Shown: piece by piece, positions 1,638 through 24,754 of the stretch | Layout: each line of letters starts with the position of its first letter | Position numbering within the stretch: the first letter of the stretch is position 1 | Virus record (IMG/VR): IMGVR_UViG_3300025132_000063 | Location: 1 to 47,865 of that record | Reading direction: 5' to 3' (one strand) | DNA: 47,865 nucleotides | Source of the DNA: a virus | Program-made: the position numbers and the translations under genes | The notes under the pieces: generated by a model | Seen by the model: only the letters and a program-made list of their open reading frames with translations | Database searches by the model: none | What the model was told of the DNA's origin: nothing

Positions 1638-4307
1638 ATGAGTGAGGAATTTAACGCATTGATGACTGAAGGTAATCAAGGTCTTGTTCGTCTTTTAGGT
1701 AGTAGGAAGGAATCAAAGAATTATCGTAATAGTCTCAAGGCATCTGATGCCAGTCTTTTGATTAATTTTCTTGAACAGAGGGAAGTCGGAGAGAGAATAT
1801 CCGTAGAATCACCGAAGGCAAAAGACATAGATGCTCCTATTCTAACTAAAGATGATGCTGGAAATATAAGACTACAATCATATCTAACTGTGTTAACTAA
1901 TACTGAGGCAGGACAAAAAATACTGGATAAGATAGAATCAAAGTATGAGGGATTCACATACATACCTGAAGAATTACAGAAAGAAATGCTTCGGCAGTTC
2001 ATGGACAAGTATGAGAAGAAAATGACTGGTTCAACAGGAAAAAGAGTCGGTGGCGGCACTGTTAGTAATAAGGAATTAAGAAGAGAGTTGAATAGAGGTT
2101 TGTCGATATTCACAGACAGTGCAACTAATAGAGATATTACTAGTGGTAGGTTGGATAGGGTTAAGGGTGAAAAATTAATCATAGATTCTGATGCAACTAA
2201 CAGGGATAAGAAAGAAGCATTGGAAATATTTAGGAAACAACCTGACTATATGAAGGCAAAGGTAGAACCTTTCATAGAATTATTGGAGAAGGTTTTGAGG
2301 CTGGATTCCGATAAAGAAAGTTTGGAACAACCTAGTGATGTGCTTCAAGATTTGATTTCTAAAGGAGACTTAAGGCTAACAAAAAATCGAAGAAAGATAT
2401 ACGACTATTGGGAAGAGGTAGATGGTGAATATGAAAACCTTGCTAAGTCTCACAATAGGTTAATATCTGCATTTAAGAAGAGTTATCCGAAGACTTCAGA
2501 CATTGTAGACCCTGAACTCGCTGAGTATATAGAGAAATTTACTGAGGTTTCTGCTGAACAATTAAAATATGTATTCAAATATCCTTCTACTTTGTTGACT
2601 ACCGTAGATGGGAAGACTAAGACTCTTGAGATTCTAGATGAATTCTTGACTAAAACAAAGAGTCTTCCTGACTTGAGAGAAACATACCACATGAAAGAAG
2701 CAACTGGATATAGATTATCTAATGAATCAGGCGGTGGACAAGTGGCTGAGATAGACCAAAGAGCGGCTGCTGAGATGGGTGAAGAAGTTCGTGACTATGA
2801 AGCAGAACAAGAGAGAATCAAAGCGTTTGCAGAATTAGTTGACACTCAAATTATATCTTTGAGTGTAGACCCGCTTTATGCTTATGCCTATAAGATGGGT
2901 CAATCAGGATTCAATGTTTCACCTTCCATTGCAGGAGAAATGAAGAGTCTTATGAACAGAGCAAAAAAGACTGCTATCAGATTAGACTTAGACAACAGTA
3001 CACTGAGAGAACTCAAAAAATACATCAATGAAATTGATATGAAAACTGTGATAAGCGAAGGTGATTTTTATCTTCCACACCAAGAGAATGTCATGGACAC
3101 AGTACCCGGATATAAATCTGATAATCCTGTGAATACTAAGTACATAAGAGAATATCTAACTAATCTATCTCAGTTCATTTCAGCAGGTTCAGAATCAGAG
3201 AGACCTCTTGGAACTGGTGTTGACTTTGGGCATCGAGAACCAGCAGACCCAAAAACAGGTAAGAAATTTGAAGTCATTACAGAAGGGAAGGGAGTTTCTC
3301 TTCCATCTAAGGGTCTATTCAGAACTAAACTTCCTGAACTTGGCAAGGTCAATGTAGAGATAGAGGAAGAGAAACAGGATGGAGACGAAACCGTTACCGT
3401 TAAGGTTCAGGTTAACTTGGAAAAGGAGTTTAATAATTTATTAGATGCCGTAAAGAAATATTACTTAGAACCTGCAACATCTGATGCAAAGCCTCTTGCT
3501 AGAAAGTTTGAGTGGGTGGAAACCCAAACACTGTCCGTATTATCAAGAGGGAGAATGAAGAAAAACGCATTCATTACAATGTTAGGTTTACAGATGAGTG
3601 AAAAAAATCCGGGTGGAGTAATTTTAGATGAAGCCGATTTAAGACTTCTAATTACATTCTTGAAGAGACTTTCTACAAATGTTACTAAGCAGTCAGTTAC
3701 ACGATTCCTATCCTTAGCCGAAGATGCTGCTAGAGCAGTTGACGATGCGTTTGAGGGAGATGATTCTGAAGCAGTTAGTATGGAGTTTGGTAATATGGCC
3801 TACAAGATACTGAAAAAGAACAGTATAGAAACTGAAGACCTTGAGTTCGGTGTTAGTGGTAAGAAGAAATTAAAGGAATGGAGCGAAGAATATGAGAAGA
3901 AGAAAAACAACATCTTCCCATTCGCAGCATTGTACTATCACATAACATCCAGCAAAGAAAAATATTCTAAATTAGGAAGTGGCTATGTTAGCATCATCAG
4001 TGATATCAAGAACATAGAAGATAAGTTGGATGTAATTAGGAAGTCAGAACTAGAAATAAACTTCTTAAATGCACACGACAATATTAGAAAGATGATGAAT
4101 AAACCCCTATACTTCGGTATAAGTTCCGTTGACAATTATGAAGATATGCAGAATACTCTATCTATTATGAAGTCTAATTTTAACACTGATTTGACTGCTA
4201 TGGAAGTAGAAGGAATCGTGAAGGAACTAGATTCAATGGCGAACATAAGTCAAAAATATGGCATATCGAGAGAGGGGGTCTATTACCTCAAAGCAATACA
4301 CAGGTGA
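1638..4307 (+). CDS. Large hypothetical protein (889 aa)
   Basis: This 889-residue protein has no family I can name. It is rich in charged helices, with a Gly-rich stretch near residue 370 (E-S-G-G-G-Q) and an acidic segment near residue 580. The last 20 residues (I-S-Q-K-Y-G-I-S-R-E-G-V-Y-Y-L-K) read like one helix-turn-helix, but this is weak. The ATG follows the upstream stop by one base in a G-ATTAAG-ATG context that recurs before other starts here. A 541- plus 889-residue pair upstream of the terminase is a large investment and may encode internal virion or ejection proteins. That is inference from size and position only. Confidence 0.75.
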   Translation: MSEEFNALMTEGNQGLVRLLGSRKESKNYRNSLKASDASLLINFLEQREVGERISVESPKAKDIDAPILTKDDAGNIRLQSYLTVLTNTEAGQKILDKIESKYEGFTYIPEELQKEMLRQFMDKYEKKMTGSTGKRVGGGTVSNKELRRELNRGLSIFTDSATNRDITSGRLDRVKGEKLIIDSDATNRDKKEALEIFRKQPDYMKAKVEPFIELLEKVLRLDSDKESLEQPSDVLQDLISKGDLRLTKNRRKIYDYWEEVDGEYENLAKSHNRLISAFKKSYPKTSDIVDPELAEYIEKFTEVSAEQLKYVFKYPSTLLTTVDGKTKTLEILDEFLTKTKSLPDLRETYHMKEATGYRLSNESGGGQVAEIDQRAAAEMGEEVRDYEAEQERIKAFAELVDTQIISLSVDPLYAYAYKMGQSGFNVSPSIAGEMKSLMNRAKKTAIRLDLDNSTLRELKKYINEIDMKTVISEGDFYLPHQENVMDTVPGYKSDNPVNTKYIREYLTNLSQFISAGSESERPLGTGVDFGHREPADPKTGKKFEVITEGKGVSLPSKGLFRTKLPELGKVNVEIEEEKQDGDETVTVKVQVNLEKEFNNLLDAVKKYYLEPATSDAKPLARKFEWVETQTLSVLSRGRMKKNAFITMLGLQMSEKNPGGVILDEADLRLLITFLKRLSTNVTKQSVTRFLSLAEDAARAVDDAFEGDDSEAVSMEFGNMAYKILKKNSIETEDLEFGVSGKKKLKEWSEEYEKKKNNIFPFAALYYHITSSKEKYSKLGSGYVSIISDIKNIEDKLDVIRKSELEINFLNAHDNIRKMMNKPLYFGISSVDNYEDMQNTLSIMKSNFNTDLTAMEVEGIVKELDSMANISQKYGISREGVYYLKAIHR

Positions 4308-4311
4308 TAGA

Positions 4312-4875
4312 ATGGTAAGTATTGGTTCAGGTTTGTATTCGGAAGACCAAATGCTAGACCTGTTGAAGAAGTTTCATGGTGATGGCAAAGATTGGCCTAA
4401 ACCAAATGGCTTCAGACCTAGAAGCGTTTGGGGTGGTAACAAATACTCTAGTACCAACCCCGTATACTTCATGGCCTTTGATGGAGATAAGCCAGTAGGG
4501 TTTGGTGGATTTGAAGACAATGGAAAGTTCATGGTAAGTGCAGGAGTCAGTGTCCATCAAGACTATCGTGGTAAGGGGATAGCGAACAAACTCATTAGAA
4601 AGAGAAATGATAAGTATGCATCAGCGAACAAACCAGCACTTGTTGCTATGAATACTAAGACAATGGGTTCAGGAGACTGGAAGAGCAAGTGGGCAAGAAC
4701 TGGTTGGGTTGACTCACCTGAAGACTCGGAGATAAGCGAGAAAGACAAAAGTGCAATTCCGTCTGAAGTGTTAGAATATCATAGAAAGAGATACGGAGAT
4801 AACTGGATGTTGTATCCTGTCGGCTCTAAACCTATGGCAAAGGCTTGGTCGATTCTATACAAGGGGGATTTCTAA
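4312..4875 (+). CDS. GNAT-family N-acetyltransferase
   Basis: About 187 residues with the GNAT fold signature. A beta-strand segment (P-V-G-F-G-G-F) is followed by a second strand (V-S-A-G-V-S-V) and the acetyl-CoA pyrophosphate-binding loop D-Y-R-G-K-G-I-A-N-K-L, which matches the family motif R/Q-x-x-G-x-G/A. GNAT enzymes move an acetyl group from acetyl-CoA to an amine; the substrate here is unknown. I chose the ATG at 4312, just after the previous stop and preceded by GGTGATAG, over an in-frame ATG at 4258 that would overlap the upstream gene by 50 bases. The stop overlaps the terminase start as TAATG, implying translational coupling. It could modify a host or virion protein, or a small molecule. 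Confidence 0.75.
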   Translation: MVSIGSGLYSEDQMLDLLKKFHGDGKDWPKPNGFRPRSVWGGNKYSSTNPVYFMAFDGDKPVGFGGFEDNGKFMVSAGVSVHQDYRGKGIANKLIRKRNDKYASANKPALVAMNTKTMGSGDWKSKWARTGWVDSPEDSEISEKDKSAIPSEVLEYHRKRYGDNWMLYPVGSKPMAKAWSILYKGDF

Positions 4876-13447: not shown

Positions 13448-16033
13448 ATGAAATCTTCAGGTGTATCTTTCGAGAAAGAAACTGAGGCTCTTACTAAAAG
13501 AGTATTAGATTTTTTCGAGAGAGTTAGATACTCCTATCTTTCTGCTAAAGAAAATCCCAAAGAGTATGGGAAGAAATGGAAATCCACTATTAAAAACATT
13601 AGAGAAAACTTTGATGGGCTTGGTAAGTTTTCTGAAATACTCAAAGAAAAGATAAACGAGAAAGACCTCTTTGATGATAGAGCAGCAGACCCTGAATCAA
13701 CCATTGCAAAGAAGGTCTATGAAGACGTAAAGAGAATGAGGTTTGAAACGTCTGAGGTAAGTGACCCATTTTCAAAACAACTAGGTGACAAGGTATTGGA
13801 CACCTTGTTAGAAGATGAAGCAGTATTCGCTTCATTCATTCACTATGCCTTGAGAAGCCATGCTAACACACTACCAAAGAAAGCATGGGAAGAGGCTAAA
13901 CTAAAGCCGGACGAGATAACACAGAACTCAATCGGTTTGGATATAGAGGTCAATGATATTCCTCTATACATCATTGAGCATTATGGTGATGATAAGGATA
14001 CCAAGAGAGTCAAGGGTAAATTCGACAAAGCATTATCCTTACTCAAAGAAGTTTACCGAAGTCGATATAGCAAAGAACAGTGGGATAATCTAAAAGACTT
14101 AGATATCGCTAAATCTGATGAAGAAAAGGCAGAAGTAGATTTTTTAATACCAAATAAACCAATGTATCGTATCTTTGAACTAGAAGATATGAAGGAGATA
14201 CTGGGTCTTAGTGGGGAGTATGTGGTTCAAGAAAAATATGATGGTATGCGAGTTCAGATTCACAAGTTCAATAATAAAGTCAAAATATTCTCATATAACG
14301 AGAAAGATATCACAGATAAATGTCCTGACCAAGTAGAAAAGATGGAAAACAAAGCCTTCGGTGATTGTATCCTAGATGGAGAACTAATGTTATTCGATGG
14401 TGATGAGGCTCTTCACAGAGCAGACACAATCACTCATGTCTTCAAGAAGAAACTAGATGGTGGAAAATTAAGACTGCATGTTTTTGATATAATGAGACAT
14501 GAAGGTAAGGATTTGACTGATGAGCCTCTAAGAGAAAGAATCAACATCCTGCTTTATCAATTCTCACAACATTCATCTGAGCCATTAGCATTTCCTTCTA
14601 AGAAAGATACAAGAATTGCAGACTCCATGAAAGAAGTAGGTGATTATGCTGAGAAGATAATGGAGATGCCAACATCTGAAGGTGTTGTCATAAAGGATAT
14701 TGAATCAACTTATTACATTGGGAAGAAAAAGAATCCAAAGTGGATTAAGTGGAAGAAGTTCGTTGACTTGGATGTAATTGTTCTAGATATGAAGAAAACT
14801 GGTAGTGGGATGTATTCTTACACAATGGGTGCAGGGCCATTGACTGCGGAAGAAAAGAGAGATATGAAATCTGTCGAATATGAAGACAAAGACTACGCCC
14901 CAGTAGGTAAGGCTCTGAATACAAAGATAGAGGTAGGCATCGGTAGCATAATACGAGTAAAGGTTGATGAGGTGAATAAAAAGAAAGGGGGATTCAGTCT
15001 TTATTCAGCCAAGTTAATCGAACTACCTGAAGTAGATGAGCCGGACAAGATTCGTACTTTAGAACAATTATCATCTAAGACTAAGAAATCACTATCAGGA
15101 ATTTTAGAACCAGTTACTACACCAAAAAGCCTAGTGAATCCATTAGCAGTGGTAGCGGAATTACAGGCTAAAGATTCCAAGAAAGTAAAGAAATACCTTG
15201 TTACAGATTACATTCATGGAGAAGCAGAAATAATCTTCAAGAGTGATGTTGAGGGTTTTACTGTTTACGGTCTCAAAGGAGATAAACTAATGGAAAAGAA
15301 TGCCATAGTAAATATGGAAGAAATGAAAGACCAGTTATCTAAGTTCATAAAAACTAGAAAATCCAAGTTAAGAGTCATTATAAGAAATATCATAGATGAG
15401 AATGGTTCACCTATGTCTTTTGATGACTTAGAAGAAAAACTTAGAGCAGAAGCATCGGATGCCTATGATGAGGTTTTCTCTCTTCAACCTAGAGAACTAT
15501 TACAATGGATGAAGAATCAAGATGCCTATGTTGAACTATCTAGCAATAGGTTCGACAATTCACCTGAAGTTATAATAAAAGATACTGAAGATTCAGAGGC
15601 TGCTGGTAAGTTTGAAGTTAGACAAAGAGACGATGGGAACATAGACTTCATTATAGAAACTGACAAAGACAGAATGGCTTGGTTGATAGATATAGATGAA
15701 CCAACAGATATCTACGACTTATTCGGTAAATCAGGCAAGTATCCTGCTAGGGTGTCTGATAAAATAGATAGCACTAAAGTTCTAGATAGTGGGGAATTAA
15801 TATTCGGAGTTCAAAAACACGGCTATCACGAATATAGAATGGAAGGAGATAAATTTCAGTCACGAATACATTTCAGAGTTGTGCCTCTAAAGGAGAAGAA
15901 GTCTTGGATTGTCTTTACTGGTAAACAACAAAAGATGCTAGATAAGGATAAAAACGAAGATGTTGTTAATATTAAACACGATAAGTATCGCAACTTAGAG
16001 TTGCCTGAAGCATTAACTCCTGATGATGAATGA
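13448..16033 (+). CDS. ATP-dependent DNA ligase with large N- and C-terminal extensions
   Basis: Seals nicks in duplex DNA through an enzyme-AMP intermediate. Superfamily motifs are all present: motif I E-K-Y-D-G-M-R with the adenylated K263, motif III D310-G-E, motif IIIa L-H-V-F-D-I-M near 345, motif IV E411-G-V-V-I-K and motif V K431-W-I-K-W-K-K. An OB-fold follows to about residue 530. The 861-residue protein is far longer than a minimal viral ligase. Residues 1-230 are helical and may be a DNA-binding domain. Residues about 560-720 are unassigned. Residues about 722-835 resemble the LigD 3'-phosphoesterase fold without its catalytic His. It sits between small head genes and the protease, not with replication genes. 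Confidence 0.9.
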   Translation: MKSSGVSFEKETEALTKRVLDFFERVRYSYLSAKENPKEYGKKWKSTIKNIRENFDGLGKFSEILKEKINEKDLFDDRAADPESTIAKKVYEDVKRMRFETSEVSDPFSKQLGDKVLDTLLEDEAVFASFIHYALRSHANTLPKKAWEEAKLKPDEITQNSIGLDIEVNDIPLYIIEHYGDDKDTKRVKGKFDKALSLLKEVYRSRYSKEQWDNLKDLDIAKSDEEKAEVDFLIPNKPMYRIFELEDMKEILGLSGEYVVQEKYDGMRVQIHKFNNKVKIFSYNEKDITDKCPDQVEKMENKAFGDCILDGELMLFDGDEALHRADTITHVFKKKLDGGKLRLHVFDIMRHEGKDLTDEPLRERINILLYQFSQHSSEPLAFPSKKDTRIADSMKEVGDYAEKIMEMPTSEGVVIKDIESTYYIGKKKNPKWIKWKKFVDLDVIVLDMKKTGSGMYSYTMGAGPLTAEEKRDMKSVEYEDKDYAPVGKALNTKIEVGIGSIIRVKVDEVNKKKGGFSLYSAKLIELPEVDEPDKIRTLEQLSSKTKKSLSGILEPVTTPKSLVNPLAVVAELQAKDSKKVKKYLVTDYIHGEAEIIFKSDVEGFTVYGLKGDKLMEKNAIVNMEEMKDQLSKFIKTRKSKLRVIIRNIIDENGSPMSFDDLEEKLRAEASDAYDEVFSLQPRELLQWMKNQDAYVELSSNRFDNSPEVIIKDTEDSEAAGKFEVRQRDDGNIDFIIETDKDRMAWLIDIDEPTDIYDLFGKSGKYPARVSDKIDSTKVLDSGELIFGVQKHGYHEYRMEGDKFQSRIHFRVVPLKEKKSWIVFTGKQQKMLDKDKNEDVVNIKHDKYRNLELPEALTPDDE

Positions 16034-17294: not shown

Positions 17295-18662
17295 ATGAGT
17301 GGATATATTAACACAATAAAAGACCTAGAAGCAGCCACATACGGATACGCTGGCCCACACGGTAACTCCGTGTTGAAGGCGGCTGGTGTCGTAGGTGGTT
17401 TCGGAACGCCCCATGATGTAACAAGCAACCCGTTTTCGGGTGCTACTGGATTGGGAGACCTATACAATGTTCTTTACGGACAGAAAGTTTGGTCAATGCT
17501 TAACCAAGAAGTTAACGCTTTGTCCATGCTTGCAAAGAGACCATACACTGCTAGTGGTTGGAGAGTTCTAAAGAGCCGACCTCAAGGTGGTTCAAGTTCT
17601 GCTTTCGCAATTGGTGCGGGAGCAACTGGAAGTGCTGCACCTGCTGCTGATAAAATCGGTGGTGTTGGTGAGAACGCTGCACTAGGAACTGATATCCCTG
17701 CAATTGCACCTGAGTATGAGAAACTATACATTAGCCCTAAGACTGTGGCTCACTTGTTCGAGTTCTCTGAACTTGGTATGGAACTTGCTGCTATCGATGA
17801 TGGTGTCGGTGACATTCGTGCAATCGTAAGAGAAGACATGGGTAAGCATCACGCTGAAACACAACAGTCAATGCTTCTAATGCCTCTTCAGAGGTACAGT
17901 GACGCAAACGCTGCAAACATCGAGAGAAACTACACTTCTCTAATGAAGATAGTTTCGTCTGCTGCTGAGATTGCTGCTATGTATACTGCTAACCTACTGG
18001 CTAACAGTGCATCAGATGGTAATGGAACACAAGTAGATACTGAAGTTAAGAGACTATTCGGAACTGAGAGAACTGTCGCAGTTGCTAGTAATAGCGTCAC
18101 ACCTGACCCTACTGCTTCCTTCTTGGATGCAGAAGTTGACTATGGTGCAGGATATGCTTCCGGTAACGCTAGAGTTCTAACTCTAAGCCTACTTAATGAC
18201 ATGATTCGCAGAATCCGTCAGAATGGTGGAAACCCGAAAGTTATCCTAACTGGATACGACACTGTTCAGAAGATTGCTGACTTGCTACAAAGCCAAGAGC
18301 GATTCATGGATAGAAAGGAGATTGTTCCAACACACAACGGAGTTCGTGGTGTTAAGGGTCAAGAAGTTGGTTTCAGAGTTGCAACATACTACGATATACC
18401 AATTATCCCAACAAAGGACATGCCAGCAACAAACGGTATGGCATCCCAAGCAACTGCAATGAGTGACTTGCTCATACTAGACACAGACCATCTGTGGCTA
18501 TCTGTGATGAAGCCTACTCAATACTTCGAGGATGGTATCACTAGCGGAAACCCATTCGGTGTTGGCAAACTTGGAAACCAAGGAATGTATCGAACTATGG
18601 GAGAAACCGGATGTTCGTTCTTCAAAGCACAGGGTAAAATCACCAACCTGAAGACTGCTTGA
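17295..18662 (+). CDS. Major capsid protein, HK97 fold
   Basis: A 455-residue protein directly after the protease-scaffold, the standard position of the major capsid protein. Evidence is the position, the size and an MCP-like layout: a Gly/Ala-rich N-terminal arm, G-L-G-D-L-Y-N-V-L-Y near 52, and an E-loop-like Ala/Gly stretch near 100-135. A spine-helix-like segment, V-R-E-D-M-G-K-H-H-A-E-T-Q-Q, lies near 180, and a late P-domain segment includes V-I-L-T-G-Y-D-T near 315. The ATG follows the upstream stop by one base. A hairpin lies just downstream. The assignment to the HK97 fold comes from gene order more than from sequence identity. Confidence 0.88.
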   Translation: MSGYINTIKDLEAATYGYAGPHGNSVLKAAGVVGGFGTPHDVTSNPFSGATGLGDLYNVLYGQKVWSMLNQEVNALSMLAKRPYTASGWRVLKSRPQGGSSSAFAIGAGATGSAAPAADKIGGVGENAALGTDIPAIAPEYEKLYISPKTVAHLFEFSELGMELAAIDDGVGDIRAIVREDMGKHHAETQQSMLLMPLQRYSDANAANIERNYTSLMKIVSSAAEIAAMYTANLLANSASDGNGTQVDTEVKRLFGTERTVAVASNSVTPDPTASFLDAEVDYGAGYASGNARVLTLSLLNDMIRRIRQNGGNPKVILTGYDTVQKIADLLQSQERFMDRKEIVPTHNGVRGVKGQEVGFRVATYYDIPIIPTKDMPATNGMASQATAMSDLLILDTDHLWLSVMKPTQYFEDGITSGNPFGVGKLGNQGMYRTMGETGCSFFKAQGKITNLKTA

Positions 18663-18722: not shown

Positions 18723-18753
18723 TTACTACCAACAAAAAAAATAGGTGATTATG

Positions 18754-19269
18754 ATGGCGAATGTTAAACTAAAAGAACACAACATAAGTGGGCCAATACT
18801 GCTAAGAAGAGCAGGGGTCTCATATGCATTAACTGCACAAGAAGATACTTTTATGCCACTTGGCATAGCAGTAGGTTTACTTGGAGATGATGCAGTGTTA
18901 GTGGAATTAAATTCAGACGATGAAAAAGAAATACTTGATGCGAGTGAGCATACTCTAGATTTAATTAGAGAAGAATTTGGGTTAGAAGGAGATGCTAAAG
19001 CAGTTCACGCAGCATTATTCCCAAAGAAATCACTAGCCGCTAAAGCGGTAAAGGCTGTGACACCAGCACCAAAGAAAGAAGAGGTAAAGGTAGAAGAGCC
19101 AGTAGAAGAACCAGTAGAAGAGCCAATAGAAGATGGTGATGCACCATTGGACATTGATTGGTCAGAACTAACAGTCAAGGAACTGAAAGTTATACTGGAA
19201 GAAAAAGGGCTTTCCACAGATGGGAAGAAAGCAGACTTGGTAGAGAGATTAAGTGCGGGGGATGAGTGA
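18754..19269 (+). CDS. SAP-domain protein downstream of MCP
   Basis: A 171-residue protein. The N-terminal 80 residues form a mixed alpha/beta domain (P-I-L-L-R-R-A-G ... A-V-L-V-E-L). A Lys/Glu/Pro linker contains a short repeat, E-E-P-V-E-E-P-V-E-E-P-I. The C-terminal 35 residues match a SAP motif (L-T-V-K-E-L-K-V-I-L-E-E-K-G-L then K-K-A-D-L-V-E-R-L), a helix-extended-loop-helix that usually binds DNA. Of tandem starts at 18751 and 18754, I chose the second because GGTGATT lies three bases upstream. Its place after MCP suggests a head-associated protein; the SAP domain could contact packaged DNA. Confidence 0.75.
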   Translation: MANVKLKEHNISGPILLRRAGVSYALTAQEDTFMPLGIAVGLLGDDAVLVELNSDDEKEILDASEHTLDLIREEFGLEGDAKAVHAALFPKKSLAAKAVKAVTPAPKKEEVKVEEPVEEPVEEPIEDGDAPLDIDWSELTVKELKVILEEKGLSTDGKKADLVERLSAGDE

Positions 19270-19565
19270 TGACTACTACCTGTCAAGGGAGTGGAGTTAT
19301 ATCCTCTTCAACCGTAGTCGCAGGACATACATGTAAGATAATGAGTGTTCATGCGACATCAACTGCAAATGCATTATTCACTGTCAAAATTTGGGACAGT
19401 AACAATACAACTACAACGGGTAAGAAGGAGGTTGCAAGACTGCAATTACATGCAGGTGGAACTGCTCAGACTCTTGAGCAAGACCTGCATGGTGTTCTAG
19501 TGGCTAACGGTATCTATGCACAGATAGCGGCAGGAACTGGAACTGTTTCAGTACAGTTTGCTTGA
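19269..19565 (+). CDS. Small beta-rich protein, possible head decoration
   Basis: A 98-residue Thr/Ala/Gly-rich protein with alternating hydrophobic strands (T-C-K-I-M-S-V-H-A-T, A-L-F-T-V-K-I-W-D, G-I-Y-A-Q-I-A-A-G) typical of a compact beta-sandwich. The ATG overlaps the SAP gene stop as TGATG. Small beta proteins after the capsid gene are often decoration proteins; here this is only a positional inference. Confidence 0.65.
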   Translation: MTTTCQGSGVISSSTVVAGHTCKIMSVHATSTANALFTVKIWDSNNTTTTGKKEVARLQLHAGGTAQTLEQDLHGVLVANGIYAQIAAGTGTVSVQFA

Positions 19566-19574
19566 GGTGCTTTC

Positions 19575-20000
19575 ATGCCAAGTATAGATACAGATACAAG
19601 ACTAATAATGACTGTTCTTTTTGTTGGGGCAGTTAGTGGAATTAACGTTTACTTCTTCTCACAATACGGAACGGCTTTCGTTTCAGCCTATGGTGCTTAT
19701 CCAGTAGCCGTAATATTCGGAGTTCTAACAGTAGGTGGAATAATGATATTGAAGGCATTATTCGATTTAATACTAAACGATTACATAGAGGATTTCCTAC
19801 TTCAACGACAGATTAACGCTTATTGGAACAGAAAGGCAAGAGACGAGGACAACAGAAAGAGAGTGAGGGAATCCATGAGAAACTTCCAACAACAGTTTGG
19901 AATGCCTATGGTTTACGGAGACAGTGTTCTACCTAATCTCCCACAAACTCAAGAGACACAAACTGTTAGTCCTACTTTCTTGACAGGTTTCAATGAGTGA
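19575..20000 (+). CDS. Membrane protein, two transmembrane segments
   Basis: A 141-residue protein with two hydrophobic helices at about 10-30 (L-I-M-T-V-L-F-V-G-A-V-S-G-I) and 42-66 (A-V-I-F-G-V-L-T-V-G-G-I-M-I-L), then a charged cytoplasmic-type helix (R-K-A-R-D-E-D-N-R-K-R) and a Gln/Thr-rich tail. There is no family match I can name. Membrane proteins are unusual between capsid and neck genes of a tailed virus. With the next gene and the GTPase it forms a small membrane-linked cluster. Confidence 0.7.
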   Translation: MPSIDTDTRLIMTVLFVGAVSGINVYFFSQYGTAFVSAYGAYPVAVIFGVLTVGGIMILKALFDLILNDYIEDFLLQRQINAYWNRKARDEDNRKRVRESMRNFQQQFGMPMVYGDSVLPNLPQTQETQTVSPTFLTGFNE

Positions 20001-20005
20001 TTAAT

Positions 20006-20227
20006 ATGGTTAGTGAAATCTTATTCGGGATGGATGAATCCACTCTCGCATATGATTTACAAAGAGCCCATTCTGCTGACGTTTGGTTTCTAAGGGCTAG
20101 GTTCTATCTTTGGGGTGGCATTGCTGCCGTGACTAGTTTCTTCGTAGGACATGCTATTTCCCTTTGGGGCATTAACTTGTATGAAGTTGGTTGGCATTTT
20201 CTTACTTCCCTTTGGGGCGGCCATTAA
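20006..20227 (+). CDS. Small membrane protein (73 aa)
   Basis: A 73-residue protein with a charged N-terminal half and an aromatic-rich hydrophobic C-terminal half (about 28-60: F-Y-L-W-G-G-I-A-A-V-T-S-F-F-V-G) that can span the membrane at least once. The ATG at 20006 follows GAGTGATTAAT. An in-frame GTG at 19997 overlapping the upstream stop is possible. It lies between another membrane protein and a GTPase. Function unknown. Confidence 0.6.
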   Translation: MVSEILFGMDESTLAYDLQRAHSADVWFLRARFYLWGGIAAVTSFFVGHAISLWGINLYEVGWHFLTSLWGGH

Positions 20228-20291
20228 CTTCTTAATCATTTTAATGCTCTACCGTATGCGACTCACTGAAGAGGTGATAGCATGTCGGTAA
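20181..20291 (+). CDS. Possible mini membrane protein (36 aa)
   Basis: A 36-codon frame, out of frame with and overlapping the end of the previous gene and the first bases of the GTPase gene. The product is almost one transmembrane helix (V-G-I-F-L-L-P-F-G-A-A-I-N-F-L-I-I-L-M-L) followed by Y-R-M-R. It fills the 54-base gap that otherwise separates the two genes. Heavy overlap with the 73-residue gene makes it uncertain. Confidence 0.3.
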   Translation: MKLVGIFLLPFGAAINFLIILMLYRMRLTEEVIACR

Positions 20292-20953
20292 TGGCAGGGT
20301 TTGCAATATTAATGGTAGAAGCCATTAACAAGTTGTATAATCGTCTTCATGCTATCAACTTCGGTGTCTATGGTGCTAGTCAAGCAGGGAAAACTACACT
20401 GCATAAGCAACTCATGACTAGAGGTGAAGTTCCTGAAATAGCAAAGAGAACAGTAGGCAGACATAGGGCAAGTAGAAAATTCGTAAAGATAGATGGCGAT
20501 GCACATACTGTAAAGACGGCTGATATAGGTGGTCAGACAGTATACTGGGGTGAATGGGTTAAAGATATGCGTAGTAGGCATGTGAAATACATTATATTCA
20601 TGTTTGATGATAGACACTTAAGTAAACACTATGACATTGAACAACAATTGTGTTGGACTTTTTTAGTGGATACTATATGCAATAAATATTGGGAAACTGG
20701 TGGTAGAAAGAAGAAAAAACAAGACCATGATTTTCCACTAGCAGTAGGTTTGTGGGCTAACAAGTATGATTTATGGAAAGACAAGTATCCTCATGATGGT
20801 AAAATAGAGAATCATCCTATCTTTGAGTCATTTAAACCCGGCCTTCAGAAACTCAATGATGCTGGTATTCCCTGCTTCAAATACATAGTCAGTGCTAAGT
20901 CAGATTCAGAGATGGTTTATCGAGGAATCCTAACAATGATAAAAGACTACTAG
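20282..20953 (+). CDS. Arf-like small GTPase
   Basis: A 223-residue protein with all five small-GTPase boxes in order: G1 P-loop G31-A-S-Q-A-G-K-T38, a switch I Thr (T57), G3 D81-I-G-G-Q85, G4 A-N160-K-Y-D163 and G5 S204-A-K206. The D-x-G-G-Q form is typical of Arf/SRP-receptor-beta-type GTPases rather than bacterial Era/Obg or MglA. Q85 corresponds to the catalytic Gln, so hydrolysis is plausible. Residues 1-25 form a hydrophobic/amphipathic helix like the membrane-binding helix of Arf and Sar1. The ATG follows GAGGTGATAGC. Neighbours upstream are membrane proteins. A role in membrane remodelling, intracellular assembly or host signalling is inference; the GTPase call itself is firm. Confidence 0.9.
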   Translation: MSVMAGFAILMVEAINKLYNRLHAINFGVYGASQAGKTTLHKQLMTRGEVPEIAKRTVGRHRASRKFVKIDGDAHTVKTADIGGQTVYWGEWVKDMRSRHVKYIIFMFDDRHLSKHYDIEQQLCWTFLVDTICNKYWETGGRKKKKQDHDFPLAVGLWANKYDLWKDKYPHDGKIENHPIFESFKPGLQKLNDAGIPCFKYIVSAKSDSEMVYRGILTMIKDY

Positions 20954-20968
20954 TTAGTCAGCATAGAC

Positions 20969-20987
20969 AGGCTCATAGCGTGAGCCT
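20969..20987 (+). other. Perfect hairpin upstream of the zinc-binding protein gene
   Basis: Seven-base-pair perfect stem (AGGCTCA / TGAGCCT) with a five-base loop, in the 56-base gap after the GTPase gene and just before an AAGGAG ribosome binding site. No T-tract follows, so a translational or mRNA-stability role is as likely as termination. Confidence 0.4.
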
Positions 20988-21009
20988 ATCAAAAGGAGTT
21001 GAAAAAAGA

Positions 21010-21702
21010 ATGGCAATGCAACAATTTCAGCCTCCAAGTTTAATTGGAGCAACAAATGCAACAGTAAATACAAATGGGGTTAATCCCTTCCTAGACCGCT
21101 TTACTGCGGCTAGGGCGGCTGGTCCTGTAATGGCTTATGAATACAAGGCGATGAAGCCTAAGAAGCAACTGAAAGAGATAGTAAAGGTACTAAAACCTGA
21201 GAAGAAATCCTTCCTAAAGATACCTTACTCTTTCAAGTATAACTACAAAGATAGATGTGTGATATGTGGAACGCAGAAGTTTTGGACCGCAGATGACACT
21301 AGAAGACCTCCGCTCCCACTACATAAGGTTCGTAAGGGATATCCAATGAGAGGAACTTACTGTGAGAAACATGCAGCAATACACATGCAGTATGAGATGC
21401 TAGAACAACAGATACTAGCAGAAGAACATGGTCTATCATTTAGTGCATACATCCCATCAGCCAAGAGTCTCAATCCAGTGAATCTAGTAAAGTCAGGACC
21501 ACTTACAACTTTGAGGCAAGAAGACATTAATTCTCTCGCTTCAGTTGGATGGTCTATTGTTCCACCGAGAAACGAATCTGCTACCCCTGAAGAACAATTA
21601 TATGCTCTAATGATAGAACAAGCAGCCATGTCTGAAAGGGTTAAGTCCTTATTGACGAAGGGTGTGGAAGTGACTGTCGAAACAACGGAGAGTGAATCAT
21701 AA
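21010..21702 (+). CDS. Zinc-binding structural protein (230 aa)
   Basis: A 230-residue protein with C83-x2-C86 and, about 31 residues later, C118-x2-H121, fitting a treble-clef-like zinc site. The N-terminal 80 residues are Pro/Asn-rich and then basic (K-P-K-K-Q-L-K-E-I-V-K-V-L-K), and the C-terminal part is helical. An HNH nuclease is not supported because the HNH catalytic residues are not evident. I chose the ATG at 21010, about 11 bases after AAGGAG; an upstream in-frame start at 20980 would overlap the hairpin. Position between the GTPase and head/neck genes suggests a virion protein. Confidence 0.65.
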   Translation: MAMQQFQPPSLIGATNATVNTNGVNPFLDRFTAARAAGPVMAYEYKAMKPKKQLKEIVKVLKPEKKSFLKIPYSFKYNYKDRCVICGTQKFWTADDTRRPPLPLHKVRKGYPMRGTYCEKHAAIHMQYEMLEQQILAEEHGLSFSAYIPSAKSLNPVNLVKSGPLTTLRQEDINSLASVGWSIVPPRNESATPEEQLYALMIEQAAMSERVKSLLTKGVEVTVETTESES

Positions 21703-22397
21703 TGGGATTATTTGGAACATCTAATGGAGCATTATCAACGCAAATGAATTCAATGAGTCAGCAGAACTTCAAATCTGTTAACAACTTATTGACTTTACAA
21801 GAGAACCATGTAGAAGAGTTCTTTCAATATCATGGAGAACAATTTCTTCGTGCATTTGAGCAATTACTAGAAGATGTAACTACTAGAGTAGTTAGTCAGA
21901 TGCTAGTAAAACTACAATTTGTTTCTAATACTAATGGGGATTTGGAAATACACCCTGACTCACTATCAGAGTTCACCACTATCACACAAGAGAACATAGA
22001 CTTGGATATTGTGAATCTACTGGCTACTGCCGTTAACTCGGAAGTCATCATGCAGAGAAGAATGGCAAAGCAACAATACCTAGAGTCACAAGGATTCACT
22101 TCTCCTTCACAAACTGGTGGGGGTGGGATGTCACCAGCAAATCCACAAGGCATGAATCCTGCAAATATACAAGGAAATAACATGGCAGTTGGTATGAACA
22201 ATGCAATGAACCAACAGGCAATGGCTTTCAATAATCAGTCAGGATATCCTGTACCACCATCGGGCTATGACCAAATGAACAATCCATATTGGATTGACCC
22301 TGCTACTGGTCAGCCAACTTATACTCCACCACAAAGCGGTCTTGGTCTAGCACAAGGAATAGGTAAAGCCGTAGCATGGGCAAAGTGGTTGGCGTAG
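21702..22397 (+). CDS. Hypothetical protein with Asn/Gln/Met-rich tail
   Basis: A 231-residue protein in two parts. Residues 1-130 are helical (N-L-L-T-L-Q-E-N-H-V-E-E-F-F and a later helix). Residues about 140-215 are low complexity, rich in N, Q, M, G and P, and probably disordered. The last 15 residues are hydrophobic/aromatic (A-V-A-W-A-K-W-L-A). The ATG overlaps the previous stop as TAATG. Disordered Q/N tails occur in virion linkers and in assembly factors. No family recognised. Confidence 0.65.
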   Translation: MGLFGTSNGALSTQMNSMSQQNFKSVNNLLTLQENHVEEFFQYHGEQFLRAFEQLLEDVTTRVVSQMLVKLQFVSNTNGDLEIHPDSLSEFTTITQENIDLDIVNLLATAVNSEVIMQRRMAKQQYLESQGFTSPSQTGGGGMSPANPQGMNPANIQGNNMAVGMNNAMNQQAMAFNNQSGYPVPPSGYDQMNNPYWIDPATGQPTYTPPQSGLGLAQGIGKAVAWAKWLA

Positions 22398-22412: not shown

Positions 22413-23675
22413 ATGAGCGAGATTGTAATTATAGATGACACTCTAATCGGTTCTAAGTTAGAACGAGACTATGAATTAACTTTAGAGAATGTTAACTCAT
22501 TGAGTGGCGATGCTAAGAAATTAACAGATGATTATCTAATACCCTTCTTGTTTACTGGCTTTAATGCTAATTTCCACAAAAATGATGATGTAGGTAAAGT
22601 AAAACTAAGAACTCGCAGAATACTAAGTGTAGATTCAAAAAAGTTTGATTCAGAGGAAGAGTATAAATCTTACAAAAAATACTTAGATATACTTCATGAT
22701 AAAATACAAGAAATGGATGTTTTGAAAACAGTAGAACGTATAACGATTCTAAGAGACCCTACGGTTATTTTTGGTGAAATGAAGACCAAGAGAGTAAAGA
22801 CAGACGAAGAATCAGCCATTACGGGAAAGGCTAAGACTGACACAGTTGAAGACACATCTAGGAACGTACTATACTCAAATCTAAAAAATAAAACATTTAG
22901 CGACCTGACTAATCCTGCTAAATTAGGCTCTAGTCTTACTGGTAACACTGAGAAAGGAATGGCCTTTAGAGGAAAGTTAGACAGAGGAGCAGAAGCGAAA
23001 GATTTGATTGACAAAGAGTTGCTGAAGAAAAAATTCACAATGCAACGTACTGGTGACACTGCAACATATACATTAGAAGTCAAGGAATATTACACAGAAC
23101 TCTTCAATCAAATGGGGCTTGACCTTGAAGATAACTTTGCTACTACTAAAAGAACTAAGGAAACAAAATACCCAGTTGGAAGTTTAGAATCAACATTAAA
23201 GAGACAACTTGAGCATGTTAAAGGAAAAAACCCTAATGACGTACTTGCCTTCAAGACATCTTTCAACAACGATAAAAGAATCGAAGTTGGAGAAATAGAT
23301 TCTAAGGGTGATTTTACTTATCAAATAGGAGGAATAGATGCGGGTAGAAAAAAGGCTATCTCAGAATTATTCCAAGAGAAAAAGAAAGAAGGACTTCTTG
23401 AAAGAGTTTTAGAGTCAGGTGTTTTCTTTTTCAAACCTGTTGGTGAAAACCAAAAAATAAGCATAAACGATTTACATATAGAAATTGCTTATACTCCAAC
23501 GGCAAAAGACCCTAACATAAGAGTATGGCAACCCTCAGATGAATTAGATATTAAACTAATGTCTAAGAAACAATTCATACAAACTTCAGGCATGGAAGGA
23601 ATGAAGCCTGTTGTTAAGATAGGAAGCATAAATAAAATGATGCGTTCCATAGACCGATATATAGCGAGGCTTTGA
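22413..23675 (+). CDS. Hypothetical structural protein (420 aa)
   Basis: A 420-residue hydrophilic protein of mixed alpha/beta composition without Cys clusters or membrane segments. Segments such as I-R-V-W-Q-P-S-D-E-L-D-I-K and a basic C-terminus do not point to a family I know. It lies between the head-associated genes and the adaptor, so it is probably a head, neck or head-closure component. A competing ATG at 22409 is in another frame and closes early. Confidence 0.65.
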   Translation: MSEIVIIDDTLIGSKLERDYELTLENVNSLSGDAKKLTDDYLIPFLFTGFNANFHKNDDVGKVKLRTRRILSVDSKKFDSEEEYKSYKKYLDILHDKIQEMDVLKTVERITILRDPTVIFGEMKTKRVKTDEESAITGKAKTDTVEDTSRNVLYSNLKNKTFSDLTNPAKLGSSLTGNTEKGMAFRGKLDRGAEAKDLIDKELLKKKFTMQRTGDTATYTLEVKEYYTELFNQMGLDLEDNFATTKRTKETKYPVGSLESTLKRQLEHVKGKNPNDVLAFKTSFNNDKRIEVGEIDSKGDFTYQIGGIDAGRKKAISELFQEKKKEGLLERVLESGVFFFKPVGENQKISINDLHIEIAYTPTAKDPNIRVWQPSDELDIKLMSKKQFIQTSGMEGMKPVVKIGSINKMMRSIDRYIARL

Positions 23676-23677
23676 AG

Positions 23678-24754
23678 ATGAGTAAACTATCCTCCCCAAG
23701 TGACTTTACCAATATTAATGCAAACTACTCACAAGGTAGAGGATTCTACACTACACACACTGATGTCTCACAGTTATTACAGATAGCAGCATTCAGTTCA
23801 AGCACTACTCCTTCTATCGCTGAAGTTGGTAATCTAATCAAAAGGGCAGAAGAAAGAGTGGATGATATTGTTGGACATTCATATCGACCAGTAATCTATC
23901 ACAACGAGTTTCATAATTTTGATTACTTTAGACAAGGTGCATATCCTGTGCAGAGGTACAAGGATTATGTTGGTTTTGTTCAACTTGAAAGAGCGGATGT
24001 TCAGAAGATAGTTAGATTAGAAGTTTGGGAAGGTGCAAAGTATGTGGATTTAGCATCTGCCACTGCTAGAATAAAAGTACCAAGTGGTCCTGAAAGCGGT
24101 GCTTGGAGAATAGTATTGGGAGTTGGAGCATATGATTTTCATCTTGATAAAGGAATAGATTTCTTCGATAACTATGGACCTAAGACAACTGCCAGTCAGA
24201 TAGCAGATGCAATCAATGAAGTCTTCCCACATAAAACTGCAAAGTTTACTGGTGAATCTTCTGCGAAGAACGTAACTGCTCAAGGAGCGAGTTCTGTAAA
24301 TATATCTGATTTCTTCTATGCTACAACCGATAGTGAAGCGGGAGATACAGTTGTAATTTCATCTTTGCTTCTAAGCGATGATGGTTCTGCTTGCACAATA
24401 ACCTCTACTGTTGGAGATGTTACTGCTTTCACTGACCATCAAGACCAAAGAAGAATGGGAGACTATTGGGTAATGGGTAAAGACGGGAAGATATTCTTTA
24501 GAAAGGAATATCCTCATCTACATTCTAATTCTATTAGGGTTGTTTATGTAACTGGTGAGTCTAGAGTTCCAGCAACCATACAAGATGCAGCGACTAAGTT
24601 GGTTGCGGCTGAAGTCATAAGACATGACGACAATTCCATCCTGATTGCCGATACAGGTTCTAACATCGACCTAAAGACAAAACATGACATTCTACTAGAG
24701 GAAGCCAATGCAATATTGAATGGTAAGAAAGATGTAATACACTTCATTATGTGA
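23678..24754 (+). CDS. Head-tail adaptor-like protein with an inserted beta domain
   Basis: A 358-residue protein. The N-terminal helical part (I-A-E-V-G-N-L-I-K-R-A-E-E-R-V-D-D-I-V-G) and the C-terminal helices (I-Q-D-A-A-T-K-L-V-A-A-E-V-I-R ... L-L-E-E-A-N-A-I-L) resemble gp6/gp15-type connector proteins, which bind under the portal. Between them, about residues 145-255, is a beta-rich domain (A-S-Q-I-A-D-A-I-N-E-V-F then V-V-I-S-S) similar in style to repeats in the LamG protein at 30458. Connectors are usually 100-150 residues, so the insertion is unusual. Start at ATG 23678, after the upstream stop; an overlapping TTG at 23672 is possible. The next genes encode neck and tail parts. Confidence 0.6.
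   Translation: MSKLSSPSDFTNINANYSQGRGFYTTHTDVSQLLQIAAFSSSTTPSIAEVGNLIKRAEERVDDIVGHSYRPVIYHNEFHNFDYFRQGAYPVQRYKDYVGFVQLERADVQKIVRLEVWEGAKYVDLASATARIKVPSGPESGAWRIVLGVGAYDFHLDKGIDFFDNYGPKTTASQIADAINEVFPHKTAKFTGESSAKNVTAQGASSVNISDFFYATTDSEAGDTVVISSLLLSDDGSACTITSTVGDVTAFTDHQDQRRMGDYWVMGKDGKIFFRKEYPHLHSNSIRVVYVTGESRVPATIQDAATKLVAAEVIRHDDNSILIADTGSNIDLKTKHDILLEEANAILNGKKDVIHFIM

Follow-up and report, generated by a model that had tools for sequence, protein, structure and literature searches.

A small GTPase gene in an all-or-none five-gene block of tailed viruses resembling the Magrovirales

A small GTPase gene in the head/neck module of a tailed virus was found to belong to a block of five genes that is present as a whole or not at all in related loci. 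The gene lies in the window, i.e., the whole stretch of 47,865 nucleotides that was analysed (IMG/VR record IMGVR_UViG_3300025132_000063). As judged from sequence profiles and a predicted fold, its product is most likely a Ras-superfamily member that represents a separate, new viral family. The carriers of the block look like Magrovirales-like tailed archaeal viruses. The sequence-only reading of this DNA had noticed the GTPase, but not its membership of such a block. The coordinates of the features are listed in Table 1.

Table 1 Coordinates of the five-gene cassette and of neighbouring landmarks in the window
Feature	Coordinates	Strand	Evidence and remarks
ATP-dependent DNA ligase, context for the virus assignment	13448..16033	+	PF01068, 4.6e-33
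Major capsid protein (MCP, SU10/Druskaviridae type), upstream landmark	17295..18662	+	PF17236, 2.9e-9; phrog_24667, 5.4e-25; HCTV-1 MCP, 9e-23
99-aa post-MCP protein, perhaps for capsid decoration; marks the left edge of the cassette	19266..19565	+	Found also in cassette-free marine groups
Cassette gene 1, 141-aa membrane protein	19575..20000	+	Transmembrane segments 10-28 and 44-62 (hydropathy), charged C-terminal tail; always with the GTPase
Cassette gene 2, 76-aa hydrophobic protein	19997..20227	+	Borderline transmembrane segment, near-invariant AHSADVW motif
Cassette gene 3, small GTPase, most likely Ras superfamily, 223 aa	20282..20953	+	G boxes, N-terminal helix 2-22, profiles, predicted fold
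Cassette gene 4, 240-aa protein of zinc-binding type	20980..21702	+	C93xxC96-x31-C128xxH131, conserved H150
Cassette gene 5, 231-aa protein	21702..22397	+	Conserved N-terminal half, N/Q/P/G-rich stretch, hydrophobic C-terminal segment
420-aa ORF, variable slot between cassette and adaptor, outside the block	22413..23675	+	
Putative head-tail adaptor, right landmark	23672..24754	+	phrog_17057; the profile also matches the HCTV-1 locus; function from position

The reading frame of the GTPase is a genuine gene. It extends from an ATG at 20282 to a stop at 20953 and has a ribosome-binding site (AGGTGAT), with the purine-rich stretch AAGAGGTGAT directly 5' of the ATG. The GTP-binding boxes follow in order as G31-x4-GKT (31-38), T57, D81-x-G-G (81-84), N160-K-x-D163, and S204-A-K206. 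The complete small GTPase that the sequence-only reading had reported here is thus confirmed by the reading frame, the boxes, and the ribosome-binding site. In the alignment, G1, the switch-I Thr57, DxGG, NKxD, and SAK are invariant in all 138 distinct relatives, and in these sequences G1 to G5 lie in order within one domain of about 200 residues, as expected of the Ras superfamily (TRAFAC). Residue 85 varies, being Gln in the window copy and, across the relatives, Glu in 101 and Gln in 37 of 138, with at least three switches on a 68-row tree. Five intact boxes with a catalytic Gln had been described; the boxes stand, and since Glu prevails at position 85, the catalytic Gln holds for the window copy and not for the family.

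A first IMG/VR scan identified 253 stretches encoding a relative. A second scan, for which a 63%-identical member served as query, yielded 188 stretches that are partly shared with the first 253. The median dN/dS was 0.048 across 81 pairs, and the GTPase is under strong purifying selection. A chance reading frame was ruled out by relatives in more than 250 IMG/VR stretches, the invariant boxes, and the dN/dS of about 0.05. GTP binding and turnover by the viral protein are predicted from its sequence.

The N-terminus of the GTPase is helical in the AF2 model (residues 2-22). This helix is hydrophobic and moderately amphipathic, with a hydrophobic moment of 0.33-0.57 in six members, and its hydropathy is unlike that of a standard transmembrane segment. 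A hydrophobic helix like those of Arf and Sar1 had been proposed earlier; the helix and its hydrophobicity were recovered, the Arf identity at the family level was not. The protein may dock on a membrane via this helix, or the helix could merely pack against the G domain.

The term "Arf-like" fits features of the protein, namely DxGG and the N-terminal helix, and not its family membership. In Pfam scans of single sequences, Roc, MMR_HSR1, SRPRB, and Arf were matched weakly and about equally, for the window protein always below the curated cut-offs. The window protein had no match to Arf (PF00025) at E<=1 in one Pfam scan, nothing in the window exceeded the cut-off, and the best Arf score within the viral family was 3.8e-5. 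The viral DxGG is invariant but lacks the Trp of the Arf WDxGGQ. The NCBIfam model small_GTP (TIGR00231) was matched by all 28 scanned members (best E 5.7e-6), the window protein remaining below the model cut-off. In searches of the PDB with a GTPase profile, Ras, Arf-like proteins, and chain 8oun ("GTP-binding protein") were retrieved, all at E > 0.1. As for predicted structures, Foldseek against the PDB already gave Ras for a first model (pLDDT 64). A further AF2 model, built from a 40-row alignment, is of moderate confidence (pLDDT 71, pTM 0.72) and weakest near the P-loop and switch I; it retrieved Ras, Rab, Rho, and G-alpha, with a best E of 1e-7 and TM up to 0.53/0.68. With the Pfam families tied below their cut-offs and the structures favouring Ras, Rab, Rho, and G-alpha, the Arf-like class of the sequence-only reading was not supported. 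The profile and structure comparison proposed alongside it (Pfam, NCBIfam, two Foldseek searches) points to a Ras-superfamily G domain and to no packaging-ATPase family. A packaging ATPase or another phage NTPase was also ruled out: terminase and portal are separate genes, and profiles and fold indicate a small GTPase.

Among viral proteins, the GTPase was assigned to no known PHROG family, and no relative was found in 50,697 phage records, even at E 10. When the first model was compared with a library of viral structures, giant-virus Ras-like proteins were the top matches. Only two matches were obtained in cellular genomes, both on contigs of a "Maricaulis" MAG that is bacterial in GTDB (L085 and L086, NZMJ01 contigs). 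Both contigs carry the viral gene, at 63-74% identity; bin contamination is likely, and these copies are most likely of viral origin and not a cellular source of the gene.

Within the cassette, genes 1 and 2 overlap by 4 nt. Membrane proteins had been noted next to the GTPase; this is correct for gene 1, which has two clear transmembrane segments, and only borderline for gene 2, whose best 19-residue hydropathy is 1.53. In the protein encoded by gene 4, each Cys of the motif is present in 172-174 of 177 aligned sequences and the His in 171, the remainder being nearly all alignment gaps. The C-terminal region of protein 5 is of low complexity. The partner proteins match no Pfam or NCBIfam family and no known phage (PHROG) family. 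The block is flanked by the putative decoration gene on its left and the putative head-tail adaptor on its right, in agreement with the head/neck location given earlier.

Several side observations concern the surroundings of the block. The slot between cassette and adaptor holds one of several unrelated large ORFs (379-1326 aa) depending on the relative, a variable site in a module that is otherwise fixed. The gene after the MCP (18745-19269) ends with a SAP domain of DNA-binding type, which is odd for a capsid module, and a GNAT acetyltransferase-like gene (4258-4875) lies directly upstream of the terminase. A scan limited to promoters of the sigma-70 type, as distinct from archaeal ones, showed no excess.

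To follow the block through related viruses, profiles of the neighbouring genes were built and searched in every locus. Of the 229 loci in which the MCP is followed by 4.5 kb or more of sequence, 202 had the five genes, 27 had none, and no locus had a part of them. In the 202 carrier loci, order and strand are identical. As many of these loci had been picked by the GTPase itself, the tally was repeated on loci selected by the MCP only, which is free of that bias: 77 of 101 had the five genes, 24 had none, and again none was partial. The loci overlap and share ancestry, and the counts are therefore not independent events. Where the MCP of the window itself had served to find the loci and enough sequence was available, the GTPase block was present in 52 of 52. 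The survey of related contigs suggested with the sequence-only reading thus shows the GTPase kept at the same locus in close relatives. The pairwise distances of the GTPase correlate with those of the cassette partners (Spearman 0.80-0.83) more than with those of the MCP (0.72).

On a quick tree of 86 MCPs, presence of the cassette maps as one change (SH-aLRT 87), so that it can be explained by one gain or, alternatively, by one loss in the sister line. The relatives without the cassette comprise viruses of the haloarchaeal Druskaviridae type, two viruses of methanogens, and two marine sister groups. In the latter, the space from the small post-MCP protein to the adaptor is taken up by one large ORF (577-1034 aa), for which no relation to the slot ORFs downstream of the cassette in carriers was detectable. 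No GTPase match elsewhere was found in 14 cassette-free virus records, some of which are fragments.

The nature of the carriers was assessed from the MCP and from long relatives. Among named phage records, the MCP matched Druskaviridae and methanogen viruses only. The long relatives are records of 73-185 kb, most of them 84-102 kb; PolB was found in 19 of 20, often as two ORFs, and a chaperonin in 9 of 18. In the records inspected by hand, PolB is on the strand opposite the GTPase. Split PolB, chaperonins, and opposite modules have been described for the ICTV order Magrovirales (PMC10768690; PMC12999244). The features by which this order was recognised, 90-110 kb, PolB, opposite-strand modules, and a Druskaviridae-related MCP, were all found. 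Indeed, the carriers share with Aoguangviridae and Apasviridae marine genomes of 90-100 kb, PolB (often split), a ligase, a chaperonin (in half of the carriers), and replication and structural modules that run in opposite directions. As Poseidoniales are the hosts of Magrovirales (PMC10768690; PMC12999244), these ocean archaea are probably, by analogy, the hosts of the carriers. PolB is one frame of about 950-990 aa in three records near the window (G001-G003) and mostly two ORFs in the other carriers. In one contig of 184733 bp (L116/G016), PolB sets and chaperonin genes each occur twice, at a distance of about 90 kb and with scores that differ between the copies; the assembly has probably joined the genomes of two related viruses, or the contig is a tandem of a genome of about 92 kb.

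Among cellular systems, the viral GTPase resembles in its layout ArvA (OapA), a vesiculating GTPase that occurs in the archaeal groups Euryarchaeota and DPANN (PMC10927574). ArvA of Haloferax is a small GTPase whose N-terminus forms an amphipathic helix predicted to bind membranes, and its loss abolishes RNA-associated vesicles; the operon also encodes ArvB and the zinc-ribbon protein ArvC, the loss of which raises vesicle output (PMC10927574). Both GTPases have a single domain, a membrane-type helix at the N-terminus, a protein with a zinc motif encoded close downstream, an archaeal setting, and matches to PF01926 and the Arf profile. The viral block, in contrast, adds membrane proteins. ArvB/OapB (PF09846) was found in none of 10 viral records, the control being detected in Haloferax volcanii and Methanosarcina, and the viral zinc-motif protein adjoins the GTPase but has no Pfam match to DUF2072, the ArvC family. 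BLASTP with an approximate ArvA sequence gave 33% over 82 aa with the viral GTPase, which is a lead only. Searches with an approximate ArvA query retrieved bacterial GTPases of the Era, Der, IF-2, and FeoB types from plasmids and Sak4-like ATPases from viral contigs; scanning for an ArvA motif gave no match.

Similarities to other systems are confined to parts of the block or its setting. Arf, Sar1, and SRPRB (PF00025, PF09439) share DxGG, a hydrophobic helix before the G domain, and an ANKxD box, but the window protein scores below their curated cut-offs, no family stands out, and the catalytic Gln is often Glu. Giant eukaryotic viruses (pithovirus, mimivirus relatives) also encode Ras-superfamily G domains, namely Rab/Ras-like GTPases, but their hosts are eukaryotes, they are not archaeal tailed viruses, and identity in structural alignments is 9-18%. 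The Druskaviridae HCTV-1 and HVTV-1 have a homologous MCP, an adaptor profile match, and the same gene order around the slot, where HCTV-1 has gp116, a small protein whose N-terminus is hydrophobic; in contrast, profile search found no GTPase, zinc protein, or other cassette gene in them. No mention of a GTPase was found in the magrovirus and archaeal tailed-virus papers and ICTV profiles consulted, although the annotation tables of further key papers may list one, and searches found no virus gene block like the cassette.

The ArvA-like layout, with a helix-bearing GTPase and an adjacent zinc-type protein, together with the membrane proteins, favours a membrane-associated late GTP switch. It is tentatively proposed that a functional Ras-superfamily GTPase in a late cassette of magrovirus-like viruses acts as such a switch at the host membrane. 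GTP binding would free or stabilise the N-terminal helix, by which the GTPase would dock on the inner side of the membrane at the place occupied by cassette proteins 1 and 2. The zinc-motif protein may be a regulator or effector and protein 5 a scaffold, while GTP hydrolysis would reset the switch. The complex would act late, e.g., at the assembly site or in the exit of progeny virions. The invariant boxes, the low dN/dS, the Ras-superfamily fold matches, helix 2-22, the two hydrophobic neighbours, the CxxC...CxxH motif, the all-or-none linkage, the GTPase distances that follow those of the partners, and the single change on the MCP tree are consistent with this proposal. Since vesicle formation in Haloferax is driven by a small GTPase that has a predicted membrane-binding helix and a zinc-ribbon protein in its operon (PMC10927574), Euryarchaeota are known to use such a principle. 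That the viral GTPase acts late and in connection with a membrane is plausible; late expression, interactions between the partners, and a role in assembly or exit we infer. It is unlikely that the block goes as far as a membrane-remodelling machine by which progeny exit or assemble through GTP-driven budding and not plain lysis, as a counterpart of ArvA and Arf outside eukaryotes.

The location within the head/neck module equally suits a part in virion assembly. The GTPase could act as a checkpoint or chaperone when heads are completed or joined to tails, with the hydrophobic proteins in a structural or scaffolding role, a possible but rather doubtful explanation. The exact position of the block between the putative decoration protein and the adaptor, its fixed order and strand in 202 loci, and a conservation like that of the capsid protein (mean identity 0.71 for the GTPase and 0.67 for the MCP) speak for it. 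Nevertheless, the block is missing from the marine sister groups and from Druskaviridae, whose MCP and adaptor are homologous, so the cassette is not needed to make such a head and tail, and a two-transmembrane protein would be awkward in a non-enveloped head. To our knowledge, moreover, no small GTPase takes part in any tailed-virus assembly pathway. Another, improbable, explanation is an effector that competes with or replaces host small GTPases and thereby redirects the host or blocks its defences. Small GTPases do control vesicle formation in Euryarchaeota (PMC10927574), a membrane biogenesis role has been proposed for the Rab-like GTPase of mimivirus (PMC4569851), and the best viral structure matches were giant-virus Ras-like proteins. 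Such genes, however, tend to be variable, sporadic, and often early, whereas the GTPase is universal in its clade, lies within the structural module, and is slightly more conserved than the capsid protein; a search of a defence-system library gave no match.

Hydrophobic small proteins among head genes recall the internal ejection proteins of phages. Cassette proteins carried in the virion might be released with the DNA and form a membrane complex that helps the genome to cross, the GTPase acting inside. The chance of this is small: the cassette proteins match no known phage family, there is no GTP outside the cell, and relatives with similar heads enter without the cassette. Smaller still is the chance that the protein is a nucleotide-binding scaffold without useful hydrolysis, its G domain being structural or GTP-sensing. 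This explanation is considered because residue 85 is not fixed, with Glu in most relatives and repeated switches on the tree, but the remaining G-box residues are all invariant. Furthermore, in Ras, intrinsic hydrolysis persists or even increases when the equivalent residue is Glu (Q61E), so a Glu in place of Gln need not abolish it.

Membrane traffic in eukaryotes is governed by small GTPases as its master switches, and much of the debate on how eukaryotes arose centres on the archaeal relatives of these proteins. In tailed viruses of probably abundant ocean archaea, a core gene thus most likely encodes a small GTPase, locked to four partner genes. The cassette represents a compact and testable viral small-GTPase system, offering two candidate partners at the membrane as well as a candidate regulator, and it bears on the exit of tailed viruses from archaeal cells in the absence of lysis genes of the bacterial type.
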